Below, piece by piece: positions 1 through 6,324 of a DNA stretch of 10,717 bases. Position 1 is the first letter of the stretch; each line of letters opens with the position of its first letter. The notes under the pieces were generated by a model. It worked only from the letters and a program-made list of their open reading frames with translations. It searched no databases and was not told where the DNA came from. The stretch covers positions 1 through 10,717 of the forward strand of contig PXSL01000046.1 in NCBI GenBank assembly GCA_003022815.1, in the 5' to 3' direction. The stretch is from Halobacteriales archaeon SW_5_68_122. Its GTDB lineage: Archaea; Halobacteriota; Halobacteria; Halobacteriales; Haloarculaceae. Both the position numbers and the translations under genes were made by a program.

Positions 1-342
1 AGCCTCTACGGTATCGACAGCGACGGGTCGGACGACGTCTGGGCCGTCGGCGGCGGCGGCTCCGTCTGGCGGTACAACGGCGCCTGGAGGCGGACCGACA
101 TAGGCAACCTCACCCTGCGCGACATCGAAATCGAGGACGAGTCGGGCTACACTGTCGGCGAGAGCGGTCGGGTGTTCGAGTACGCCGCCGGCTCGTGGAA
201 CGAAGACACCACGGATACCGGGCAAAACCTCAAGGGACTCGTGCTCGGGTCGCCTAACGTCGCCGTCGGCGCCTCCGGGATCGCCATCGTCAAGGAGGTC
301 CCCGGCGATACACCCGGCAATGTGTCCGGGCTCGGGCTCTGA
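1..342 (+). CDS. C-terminal part of a beta-propeller-like repeat protein
   Basis: The reading frame is open from the first base of the window and ends with TGA at 340-342, giving the last 113 residues of a protein whose start lies outside. The sequence has repeating units of the type 'D(V/I)WAVG..G.V.RYNG.W' (about residues 17-31) and 'G.SGRVFEYAAGSW' (about 52-66). These resemble blades of YCF48/BNR/Kelch-like beta-propellers, in which a Gly-rich strand is followed by an aromatic 'Y.G.W' turn. No membrane segment or sorting signal is visible at the C-terminus, which ends Gly-Leu-Gly-Leu. Such haloarchaeal proteins are often secreted or surface-exposed, but the N-terminus that would show a signal peptide is missing. 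The function is unknown. The gene is followed by a 271-base non-coding gap, so it probably ends its transcription unit. Confidence 0.75.
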   Translation, partial: SLYGIDSDGSDDVWAVGGGGSVWRYNGAWRRTDIGNLTLRDIEIEDESGYTVGESGRVFEYAAGSWNEDTTDTGQNLKGLVLGSPNVAVGASGIAIVKEVPGDTPGNVSGLGL

Positions 343-2202: not shown

Positions 2203-3185
2203 TCAGTTCAACCGGTACCGCAGCAGGGCGGCGACGCCCCCGAGGTTGGCCAGCTGCTGGCCGGGGTCGAACTCGTGGGAGAAGACGGTCACGTCGCCGC
2301 CCTGCTGTTCGACGCTCTCGACGACATCGTTGATATCGACGTCCCAGTCGCCCTCGCCGGCCCGTTCGGCGCGCAGTCGCTCGTCCAGTATTAAGAGCGT
2401 CTCAATGGCGCCGTACTCGGCGGCCATGGCCACCTCGTCGATTCCGTAGGCGACCTTCGCGCCCTCGCCGATGCGCTCCATTAGCTCGTCTATCAGCTCT
2501 GCTTCCCGGGCGATGCGGGTCTCGGTCTGGACCTGCTCGATGGCGCCCCGCTTGAGCACCTCGTGGACGCCGCGGTCGCCGACGCTTGCGGTGTCGACGG
2601 TCCGCACCCGCTCGGCCAGCTCCGGCGCCTCCGCTTCGATGTATTCGAGTGTGTCCTGTTTCGTGAACCCCGGGCCTGCGAGAATGACCGCCTCGACGTC
2701 AAGGCGGCAGAGAACCGCGGTCAGCTCCTCGAACAGCTCGTCCCGGGAGCGGGCGAACTCGCCCTTGCCGGTGGTGGCGGTGATGGAGGCCCGCTCCTCG
2801 ACGCCGTATTGAGCCGCTCGAGCTGGTCGACCTGCCAGGCCTTCTCGACAGTGAGTTCGTCGTGGGCCTCGACGTTGAGGGTGTGGTGGAAGTCGAGCTG
2901 GTCCTCGCGGGAGCAGTCGACGATCTCGCCGCCGACCCGAAGCCGGTTGGAGAACTTTGCGAACTCCACGTCGGCCACCTCCAGCCGGACCCACATGGGT
3001 TCGCGCTGGCCTCCGGTGTCGCGGGTCTTGTCGTCGTCGCGCTGGATGCGCCGGGTGGTGTCGGCCGCGGCGAGGTCCCCCGGCTCGATGACGTAGGTGA
3101 GATGCCACAGGTCGTCGAGGCTCTCCGGGACGACCGTGATGCGCTCCCGGCGACCCTCGACGCTCTCGCGGTCGGCAATGTGCAT
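2203..3185 (-). pseudogene. pelA: Pelota (aPelota/Dom34), broken by an internal deletion and frame change
   Basis: Pelota is a release-factor-like protein that enters stalled or empty archaeal ribosomes and, with aEF1A and ABCE1, splits them. The N-terminal domain runs from the ATG at 3185 to about 2811 (125 residues: '[10 protein letters not shown]', '[10 protein letters not shown]', '[16 protein letters not shown]', 'FHHTLNVEA', 'WQVDQLERL'). The central and C-terminal domains continue in a different frame from about 2814 to the TGA at 2203 (203 residues: '[20 protein letters not shown]', '[17 protein letters not shown]', '[11 protein letters not shown]', '[12 protein letters not shown]'). 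Together they give 328 residues against about 355 in the family. The missing part is roughly 27 residues at the start of the central domain. Translated as it stands, the first frame runs on into a Ser/Pro-rich tail and stops at 2721 (154 residues). No usable start is evident for the second part. A weak box A (CTTAGG, about 3209-3214) lies about 24 bases upstream of the ATG. Either a real loss of function or an assembly error. Confidence 0.85.
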
Positions 3186-3237: not shown

Positions 3238-4011
3238 CTACCTGTCGAGGGGGTCGTCCTCGGGGTTGACGTCCGTCCCCGTCGGGGAGAGGGCGTCGCC
3301 CGCCGGCGGCGTGTCCCGGTCCGTTCCGGTCCACTCGGGGGTCACCGGCTCCAGCCCCAGCGCGTCCCCGACCCCCTGCCCGTAGCAGTAGCGGACGCCG
3401 GCGGCGACGACGAAGTGCAGGAAGAAGCCGACGAGCACGGCCCGGAAGGCGTACGCGAACGGGAACAGGAGTACCTGCAGCAGCAGCGACAGCGCCCACG
3501 CGACGGCGTAGTCCTCGGTGAGTGCGCCCGAGACGACGGTCCGAAGGCCGAACGCCGCCCGGACCCGACCGGTGTAAGCGTACCGGGCGACGGCCACCGG
3601 GAGGGCGTACAGCGCGCCGAGCAGGTACATGACGGCGAACAGCGCCACCACGCCCGTTACGGACAGCGCGGCATTGGCCAGCGCCGTCGGCAGCCCGGCC
3701 GCCGAGAACAGCGTCGCCGGGTCCCGGTCGAGCCCCCTGGCGTACGCCAGCGGGCCCAGCACGACTGCTGCCGGCAACAGGTAACACGTCGAGATGAGAA
3801 GCGATGCAAGCCCGTCTCTGAACAGTCGCCCGGGGTCGTCGAACGGGGGTGGCGTCGGTCGGTCCCGGCCGATTGTCGTTCGGACGACCCGGACGTAGTA
3901 GCCACGCAGGAAGACCAACGGAAGGATACCCAGGAGCGCGGCGTACGTCAGCGGTCCCTCCAGTAGCCCATTGGGCTTCCTCGTCGGATACGACAGCGCC
4001 TCGCGGAGCAT
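3238..4011 (-). CDS. DUF4013-type polytopic membrane protein
   Basis: This 257-residue protein has the layout of haloarchaeal DUF4013 proteins: an N-terminal 'ALSYPT' (5-10), a first membrane helix (about 19-40), a 'PPPFDD.GRLF.DGL' motif (54-68), then hydrophobic segments at about 66-90, 108-142 and 166-207. A hydrophilic acidic and Pro-rich tail runs from about residue 220 to the end. The molecular function of this family is not known. The start at 4011 is supported by a clear promoter 24 bases upstream. Downstream, the Pelota gene begins 52 bases later on the same strand with a possible box A of its own, so the two may be partly co-transcribed. Confidence 0.8.
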
Positions 4012-4078: not shown

Positions 4079-5419
4079 CTACTCGTCGACCATCCGGCTG
4101 CCGCCCGGCGGGCAGAACTCCTGAACGCGGTCGGCGCTGGCCACCTTGCGGACGAAACTGGTGTCCTCGAATCGCTCGCGGAACTCCCGGTAGAGCCGCT
4201 TTGCGATGTCGTTCTGGGCGTACCGGCCCGGCTCCAGCCGCACCGATGTCTCCGCGCGCGGTTCGATTGCCGACGGCGGCCCGCCGACGACCCGGGTGTC
4301 CGGCTCGCACGTGATGCCGACGGCGACGCCGACCGAGGTGTCGCGGTAGTACTCCCGGTCCCCCCGGACCACGAAGCCGCCCTTCTCGATATACTCGCCG
4401 CTTTCCGGCGTTTTGGACACCTGGTCGGGGTCGACCTCGTACACGTCGCCCTCGAACGTGCCGTCCTTCCAGACCGACGAGTAGGAGACGGCGAACTGTG
4501 CGGCCTCCTCCCGGCTGGAGTCCGGAATCTCGATGTCCCGCGCCGGTTCGTCGGGCTCGGTGGCCTTCAGCACCGTCACCGGCGCGCCGTGGGCCTGGGC
4601 GTGGAAGAACCGGTCGGACGGCTCGATGTACTTCTTGACGAGCTCCTCGTTCTGGTCGGCGTTGCGCCCGCCCAACACGAGAAAGCCGTCGGAAGTCCGA
4701 AACCACCGGAACCGCTCGTACCACTTCTCGTCGTACCGGACCGGCACCGACCCCATCGAGAGGTAGTCCCGGTCGACCTCCTCTTCCTCCTCTCTGTCGT
4801 CCTCCCGGTCGGTCGCCTCCCACTCCTCGCGGCGCCCTTTGACCGCCTCAAGGTCCTCGCGGGTGTCCTCGATGGCCGCCTGGGCGCCCTCCTTCTTCTC
4901 GCGGACCCGCTTGGCCTCCGTGTAGAGCCGGTCGGCGTTCTTCTCAACGCCCATCGAGGGGTCGACCTCGATTCGCGTGTCGTCGACCTCGACGGTGACC
5001 GTCCCCGCCGCGGCGTCGACGCCGACCACCGCTTCGGCGGCGGGGATACCCTGCTCGGCGCCTTCCTCGAATGTCCCCTCGATGTCCGCCCAGCCGTGGC
5101 CCGCCTCGCGGGCCTCCCGGACCGTCGAGCATATGTCGTCGACGAGGTCGTAGTTGCCGTACAGCAGTTCGGCCTTCTGTTGTTCGGCCTCGGCCTGCGC
5201 CTCGAAGTCCTCGATGGCGCCCTCCTGCTGTTCGATGATGCGCTCGTGCTTCTCGATTTCGGTCTCGAAGTCCGGCCGGGCGCTGCCGGGGTCGCTCGCC
5301 GCCTCCTCGTCCTCCTGCTCAAGGCGGTAGAAGTACTGGTCGATGGCGCCGTTGAACGTCTCGAAGGCCGTCGCCTCGTAGCCCGCCGCGGCGTGTTCCT
5401 CCAGCGGCAGCGGCGTCAC
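4079..5419 (-). CDS. rqcH: RqcH/NFACT protein, C-terminal half (coiled coil + NFACT-R), split from N half
   Basis: This 446-residue frame is the second half of archaeal RqcH. It opens at a GTG (5417-5419) that overlaps the TGA ending the first half (GTGA). Residues 2-10 ('TPLPLEEHA') are the expected continuation of the first half's 'VVDVTPLP'. It has coiled-coil segments (about 51-90 and 160-215, Glu/Lys/Arg-rich) that in RqcH/NEMF reach across the large subunit. The NFACT-R (DUF814) domain starts with 'KWYERFRWF' (242-250 region), then 'SDGFLVLGGRNADQNEELV' and 'FFHAQAHGA', and runs to about residue 345. The C-terminus is intact. Removing one copy of the 14-bp duplication at 5405-5432 joins the halves into 743 residues, close to the usual family length. 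Without a Shine-Dalgarno ahead of the GTG, expression would depend on termination-reinitiation. It could be a working second subunit or a dead fragment. Confidence 0.75.
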   Translation of the reverse strand: MTPLPLEEHAAAGYEATAFETFNGAIDQYFYRLEQEDEEAASDPGSARPDFETEIEKHERIIEQQEGAIEDFEAQAEAEQQKAELLYGNYDLVDDICSTVREAREAGHGWADIEGTFEEGAEQGIPAAEAVVGVDAAAGTVTVEVDDTRIEVDPSMGVEKNADRLYTEAKRVREKKEGAQAAIEDTREDLEAVKGRREEWEATDREDDREEEEEVDRDYLSMGSVPVRYDEKWYERFRWFRTSDGFLVLGGRNADQNEELVKKYIEPSDRFFHAQAHGAPVTVLKATEPDEPARDIEIPDSSREEAAQFAVSYSSVWKDGTFEGDVYEVDPDQVSKTPESGEYIEKGGFVVRGDREYYRDTSVGVAVGITCEPDTRVVGGPPSAIEPRAETSVRLEPGRYAQNDIAKRLYREFRERFEDTSFVRKVASADRVQEFCPPGGSRMVDE

Positions 5420-5434
5420 GGCAGCGGCGTCACG
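5405..5434. repeat. Perfect 14-bp tandem duplication that splits rqcH
   Basis: CGGCAGCGGCGTCA occurs twice head to tail (5405-5418 and 5419-5432), and the periodicity runs on two more bases (5433-5434). On the coding strand the unit reads TGACGCCGCTGCCG. The extra copy shifts the frame by 14 bases, places TGA (5416-5418) in frame for the first half of rqcH and leaves GTG (5417-5419) as a start for the second half. Taking out one copy restores 'VVDVTPLPLEEHA' and a total of 2232 bases, an exact multiple of three. Confidence 0.9.
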
Positions 5435-6324
5435 TCGACGACGCGGCCTCGCGGCTCTCCGTTGCTCGGCTCCTCCGAGGCCTCACTTCGTTCGGCCTCG
5501 CGGCTCGCGTGTCGTCCCTCCCTATGCTCGGTCCTCCCGCTCGGCTCCTCCGAGGCCTCACTTCGTTCGGCCTCGCGTTCCTCGTACAGCCGCGGATCGG
5601 TCTCGCCGGCCAGGAGGGGTTCCCGGAGCCGTTCCAGCGCGCCGAACAGCGCCTCGTACTGGTCGGGCGTCGCCGCCTCGATGTCCACGGTCTTCTCGAC
5701 GCCGGCCCGTGTGCACAGCTCCTCGGCGTAGAGGCCGCCGAAGTTCAGCTGGGTCGCCAGCGTCCGCACCAGGTCGGTGTCCGACTCGTCCATTTTCGCG
5801 GCGAAGGCCTCGTACTCGCAATCGAGGGGGCTAAACCGCTCGTCGGGGTAGCCGTACTGGCTGCCGGGCGCGACGGTCCGGGAGCGCAGCCGGACGGTGT
5901 CCAGGCAGTCGACCACCTCCCGATCCTCGTTGGTGACCGCGACGTTGCCGTCACCGAACAGCTCCGCGACGAGGAGCGTCGTCCCGTCGTCCCGCTCGAA
6001 CCGGAAGGTGAGGATTCGGTCGAAGCCGTACTGCTCGACGCCCTCGAGGGTGGCGCCGGCGATGCGGTTCCGCAGCATCATCGCGAAGTTCGGCGGCCGG
6101 CCGGGCGCGTCCGGGACGTGCTTGGGGGCGGCGACGTGGGCCCGTTTGGGGTCGCCCACCTCGAGGATGAGTTCGACCCGGCCCCGCTCGTAGTCCCGCA
6201 TCTTCAGTCGCACCAGGTCCTCGCCATAGAGGTAGGCCTTGTCGACGACGGCGCCCGTGTAGTCCCGCAACTCGCCGACCAGCGCCGCGAGGTCGACGCC
6301 CGTCATCGCCCGCTTTCGGTCCAT
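5416..6324 (-). CDS. rqcH: RqcH/NFACT protein, N-terminal half (NFACT-N + HhH), ends at premature stop
   Basis: RqcH (NEMF/Rqc2 homologue) binds large ribosomal subunits carrying stalled peptidyl-tRNA and recruits Ala-tRNA for C-terminal tailing. This 302-residue half has the NFACT-N domain: 'TGVDLAALVGELR' (8-20), 'DKAYLYGEDLVRLKMRD' (28-44), 'GRPPNFAMMLRNRI' (75-88) and the conserved Asp102-Arg103 pair in 'GFDRILTFRF', which in NEMF/Rqc2 is needed for tRNA binding. The helix-hairpin-helix region follows at about 178-240. Residues 250-287 hold two copies of 'REAERSEASEEPS' from an internal DNA repeat. The frame ends 'VVDVTPLP' at the TGA (5416-5418) created by a 14-bp duplication. The ATG at 6324 is chosen because a T-rich box (CTTTCTC, about 6346-6352) sits 22-28 bases upstream; Met7 (6306) is the other option. 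The fragment lacks the coiled coil and NFACT-R domain, which follow as a separate overlapping frame. Confidence 0.8.
   Translation of the reverse strand: MDRKRAMTGVDLAALVGELRDYTGAVVDKAYLYGEDLVRLKMRDYERGRVELILEVGDPKRAHVAAPKHVPDAPGRPPNFAMMLRNRIAGATLEGVEQYGFDRILTFRFERDDGTTLLVAELFGDGNVAVTNEDREVVDCLDTVRLRSRTVAPGSQYGYPDERFSPLDCEYEAFAAKMDESDTDLVRTLATQLNFGGLYAEELCTRAGVEKTVDIEAATPDQYEALFGALERLREPLLAGETDPRLYEEREAERSEASEEPSGRTEHREGRHASREAERSEASEEPSNGEPRGRVVDVTPLP
5464..5577. repeat. Two 39-bp direct repeats with internal hairpin, inside rqcH
   Basis: An identical 39-base sequence occurs at 5464-5502 and 5539-5577, 75 bases apart start to start (25 codons, so both are read in the same frame). Each copy contains CGAGGCC and GGCCTCG arms around an 11-base TCACTTCGTTC spacer, a perfect 7-bp inverted repeat. 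On the coding strand each gives 'REAERSEASEEPS'. They lie in the variable linker between the helix-hairpin-helix and coiled-coil parts of RqcH, where insertions are tolerated. The form resembles small palindromic dispersed elements of haloarchaeal genomes, but only these two copies are seen here. Confidence 0.85.

Follow-up and report, generated by a model that had tools for sequence, protein, structure and literature searches.

The question raised by this locus is whether rqcH is truly divided in two in the organism, or whether the sequence that divides it arose when the contig was put together. The window (the whole 10,717-nucleotide stretch of DNA analysed here) holds, at positions 5405–5434 on the minus strand, two perfect head-to-tail copies of a 14-bp unit plus 2 bp. 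Tandem Repeats Finder (period 14, 2.1 copies, 100% match) and an exact scan both recovered this duplication, as the original prediction had described it, and in the exact scan it was the sole perfect tandem duplication with a unit of 10–60 in the window. Only one comparable duplication (28 bp, in L026, whether coding or not) occurs in 661,307 bases from 62 related loci, the other 13 of the 14 perfect tandem duplications with units of 10–60 there having units shorter than 13 or divisible by 3; the 14-bp duplication is therefore beyond chance, and is either a mutation or a product of assembly.

The consequence for the gene is plain from the reading frames. On the minus strand, an N frame of 302 amino acids (5416–6324) runs from an ATG at 6324 to a TGA at 5418–5416 and matches NFACT_N, and a C frame of 446 amino acids (4079–5419) runs from a GTG at 5419–5417 to 4079 and matches the remainder of NFACT_N and NFACT-R. 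Stop and start share 4 nt, the GTGA at 5419–5416, just as had been predicted. The identification as rqcH also holds, with the two halves matching consecutive parts of the NCBIfam profile RqcH_arch (NF041120), positions 1–251 for the N half and 240–644 of 645 for the C half; jointly they cover 1–644, as well as PF05833 and PF05670. Alone, the C half scores above the NF041120 cut-off (542.9 versus 400 bits) and the N half below it (266.5 bits). The C half loses no coding capacity through the split, and the predicted one-copy length is correct: the two frames span 2,246 bases (6324 − 4079 + 1), and removal of 14 leaves 2,232, or 744 codons. The window is haloarchaeal, and its reading frames extend past both ends, which fits a contig that is probably draft or metagenomic.

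Relatives and constraint at the junction

The junction is open in frame in every relative's locus that reaches the site (61 of the 62 compared; L053, whose contig starts inside the C half, was excluded from the junction counts), and in none of the 61 does a tandem duplication lie 60 bases or less from it. The split is thus not conserved, as that of a natural split gene would be; nor does copy number vary at the site between species. L005 and L019, two of the 62 loci, do have a frame break away from the junction, caused by net one-base indels in the N half. A GTG codon at the junction point is itself ordinary among relatives, occurring in 34 of 61 loci by a simple pattern count, with GCG in 15. 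P0001, P0002, P0003 and P0008, all near relatives, have the full-length protein, with Ala at that point. The closest RqcH found, P0001, has the source name Halobacteriales archaeon QS_1_68_44, is 94% identical over the C half and, at full length, scores 822.1 bits against NF041120 (cut-off 400).

Constraint was compared across 81 full-length proteins out of the 120 homologues listed. When P0002 and P0003 served as outgroups, changes specific to the window numbered 1 versus 3 for P0001 in the N part (248 sites) and 7 versus 9 in the C part (443 sites). Of the columns conserved at ≥97% in the 80 other proteins, 98 fall in the N part and 158 in the C part; the window differs at one of the former, a difference that P0001 also has, and at none of the latter. 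An old pseudogene is ruled out, there being no excess of changes in either half and each half being one open frame. The split, if real, would be very recent or functional, and an artefact would fit the same conservation equally well.

A repeat beside the duplication

Close to the duplication, which on our reading of the alignment begins about 8 nt from its edge, lies an in-frame linker insert (5443–5580, minus strand; edges approximate, placed by eye against relatives without the insert). It contains two identical copies of a 30-nt repeat core, at 5464–5493, nearer the duplication, and at 5539–5568, and its DNA matches a genome-wide, multi-copy interspersed repeat family found in 14 of 20 genomes of one genus. 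Matches numbered at least 29 in G001, at least 31 in G002 and at least 73 each in G013 and G014, with five or fewer in the others; the larger counts probably fall short of the true numbers, with no more than 40 candidates scored in each genome. Twenty repeat regions, from two genomes and chosen among strong matches, were read closely. Outside the RqcH linker the same repeat forms arrays, some without an open frame across them. No title or opening abstract lines in the literature searched described the family, which is not a claim that descriptions are absent.

At the protein level, the linker is 7 or 8 residues long in 79 of 104 measurable homologues among those listed. The repeat-encoded peptide occurs there in nine of the 120 listed, and in the eight of these that could be measured the linkers are 24 to 67 long. 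Linker residues 254–270 of the P0001 model have a pLDDT below 50; a fold search with this model ranked NEMF, Rqc2, RqcH and related N-terminal domains at the top, and its pTM of 0.48 is too low for the packing of the halves to be read from it. Some Natronomonas-like species carry the repeat in frame in the RqcH linker, with insert length varying between species. Repeat copies at window positions 5464–5568 and at about 4854–4967 of L003 are more alike within a species than between species at the same place, which suggests that repeats have been replaced or converted. The repeat peptide also occurs in another haloarchaeal protein (PF23366; P0201 and P0203), where it again directly follows an LYE motif. 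P0015, from a 40.8-kb JGI contig, is an RqcH C part of 532 amino acids whose first residue, V, falls within a long linker rich in repeats, and it is perhaps another split or mis-joined rqcH; no partner was recognised among the tails of 18 proteins inspected out of 85 hits to an N-half search.

Two ways in which the repeat region might have produced the duplication were rejected. Target-site duplication by the repeat is ruled out by the position of the 14-bp copies, which are adjacent and both on one side of the insert, and hairpin-driven slippage by the predicted DNA fold of 5380–5600, which is no stabler than those of shuffled sequences (z = −0.03).

The pelota lesion and the origin of the duplication

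A second lesion lies 2.6 kb from the rqcH duplication, in the next gene but one; like the linker repeat, it does not figure in the original prediction. L001–L004 have rqcH, a DUF4013 gene and pelota next to one another, which brings two ribosome-rescue factors together at one locus. In the window, the DUF4013 gene between them (3238–4011, minus strand) has an intact frame, and pelota (3185–2203, minus strand) lacks 85 bp present in those four relatives and changes frame at the join (approximately 2808–2817). Its N fragment is a frame of 154 amino acids (2721–3185), of which some 125–130 residues have pelota homology, and its C fragment lies in another frame (2203–2814); homology to the L003 pelota ends at residue 125 and picks up at 153 in the other frame. 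Among relatives the gene is otherwise whole: in 33 of the 62 loci the retrieved flank contained a pelota frame, which in 32 of them is single and open over 359 codons or more and in L001 is cut by a contig end.

Across the order, pelota is present in 144 of 146 genomes, G106 and G113 giving no pelota match and G113 also no rqcH match. It lies in two frames in two of the 144, both times through assembly gaps, with Ns in G128 and, in G025 (L134), Ns flanked by sequence that we take to be transposase adapter-like. G028 has an intact pelota together with a second copy bearing an N-free deletion, on a 9-kb contig. The residues missing from the window (126–152) overlap those missing in G025 (104–149) and G028 (116–163), and the gap in G128 (177–232) is nearby.

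Broken copies of rqcH elsewhere have a similar look. An order-wide search gave matches in 292 of 293 genomes, with weaker matches outside those listed, and no rate of broken rqcH is drawn from it. Seven genomes with weak, double or odd rows among the matches listed were re-inspected, along with G018, G113 and the genome of L019, and five broken genes were read at base level, G029, G045 and G106 being left out. These show an extra A in a run (L080, a net one-base indel), and net one-base losses (L094 and L098); L095 has an N within sequence that matches poorly, and L097 combines an N-gap with a deletion close by that is free of Ns. All five look like sequencing or assembly lesions; pelota is intact in each of the five genomes, and no second joint breakage was seen among them.

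We consider it most probable, at roughly 0.6, that the two-copy site is an assembly or gap-closing artefact and that the organism has no such split. Next to a multi-copy repeat, two sequence ends with about 16 bases in common would have been joined without merging those bases, and the real rqcH of the organism would be continuous, as in its relatives; we infer both this assembly step and the draft or metagenomic status of the contig. Assembly error, which the original prediction had listed as its refutation, becomes the best explanation because a second gap-like, frame-breaking lesion lies on the same contig, in a gene that is otherwise intact and at a place where other assemblies fail. An artefact is favoured further because a multi-copy repeat adjoins the edge of the duplication, because no relative has the split, because neither half of rqcH shows relaxed constraint and because the five other broken rqcH genes look like technical lesions. 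Short-read assemblies tend to break at multi-copy repeats. Several points count against an artefact: neither Ns nor any of four adapter motifs were found in the window; a 30-bp feature is far shorter than an ordinary short read, and an assembler working with longer words normally needs reads that carry it; and, by gene length, we estimate at about 4% the chance that two random errors would both fall in functionally linked genes.

Next in likelihood comes a real and very recent event, in which a 14-bp duplication with 2-bp microhomology would have inactivated rqcH in one strain or population, perhaps together with a real deletion in pelota. We regard this as possible but clearly less probable. 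The duplication is exact and free of Ns or adapter, both halves are still conserved, as would be expected, and the two broken genes have linked functions and lie near each other. Pelota loss would leave RqcH with little substrate, so both genes could decay together. The lack of the duplication in relatives and the intact constraint fit a mutation of this age as well as they fit an artefact. However, no pelota break among the 144 genomes that have the gene is convincingly real, and the broken rqcH genes read at base level both look technical and sit in genomes with pelota intact.

A possible two-chain product and likeness to known systems

If the DNA is real, RqcH might still be made as two polypeptides, the N half ending at the TGA, the ribosome restarting at the overlapping GTG and the halves assembling. 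In H. volcanii, gene pairs on the same strand overlap by 4 nt, as ATGA or GTGA, far more often than they take any other arrangement, and such overlaps are efficient in reinitiation (PMC10666635) and support coupling there (PMC10666635 and PMC6728339); a coupled two-chain RqcH would thus be mechanistically possible. No coding capacity is lost, both halves are conserved, and the split follows a linker that would tolerate change, to judge from its low model confidence in P0001 and the inserts in nine listed homologues.

The overlap, however, carries no sign of selection. When 14-bp duplications were made in silico at 118,389 positions in the rqcH genes of 58 of the 62 loci (L004, L005, L019 and L053 left out), an ATGA or GTGA overlap of 4 nt arose in 51% (60,362–60,731 under two slightly different rules), and with 13-bp units it never arose. 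The overlap follows from phase and codon usage and is unremarkable, since about half of random duplications of this size in rqcH yield one; retained full coding capacity is the less common part of the outcome, with the start falling inside the second copy in only 3.8% (4,537). Because a frameshift of this size and phase so often gives ATGA or GTGA in relatives' rqcH, an overlap of this kind is not, on its own, evidence of designed coupling. The split is present in no relative that reaches the site, and an artefact or a recent event would leave both halves just as conserved. We therefore hold a working two-chain RqcH to be unlikely. Distinctly unlikely, too, is the wider reading that the contig is right and that a population truncated pelota and made RqcH two coupled chains, or lost it, so dismantling the Pelota–RqcH rescue route. 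A reversible slipped-strand switch between fused and split forms, the third outcome proposed, is very improbable: loss of a copy is in principle open to every perfect tandem duplication, but here there are only two copies, and none of the 61 relatives' loci reaching the site has a tandem duplication near it.

Were the duplication real, it would offer a test of whether RqcH works in two pieces and of whether haloarchaea can do without the Pelota–RqcH route. On the preferred reading, as an artefact, it is a caution that draft assemblies need checking against reads in pelota and at linkers bordered by repeats.

Among known cases, the gap and join lesions of draft haloarchaeal genomes (pelota in G025, G128 and G028; rqcH in G192) resemble those of the window as frame-breaking losses in the same two genes, those of G028 and G192 also being without Ns, whereas the window rqcH lesion is an exact duplication and not a loss, with neither Ns nor adapter. 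Rickettsia palindromic elements are likewise inserted in frame in genes, as a genome-wide repeat inside conserved proteins; the window repeat differs from them in host and sequence, and the likeness was judged by reading frame only. Coupled overlapping pairs of Haloferax volcanii, as described in PMC10666635 and PMC6728339, share with the window rqcH the same strand and a 4-nt GTGA overlap, but all relatives reaching the site have a single gene in place of the window halves, and any coupling here is putative. Archaeal RqcH itself (NF041120; Rqc2/NEMF family) has a profile that the halves match in consecutive parts, with the difference that the window gene is divided between two frames and has a linker insert of repeat origin.
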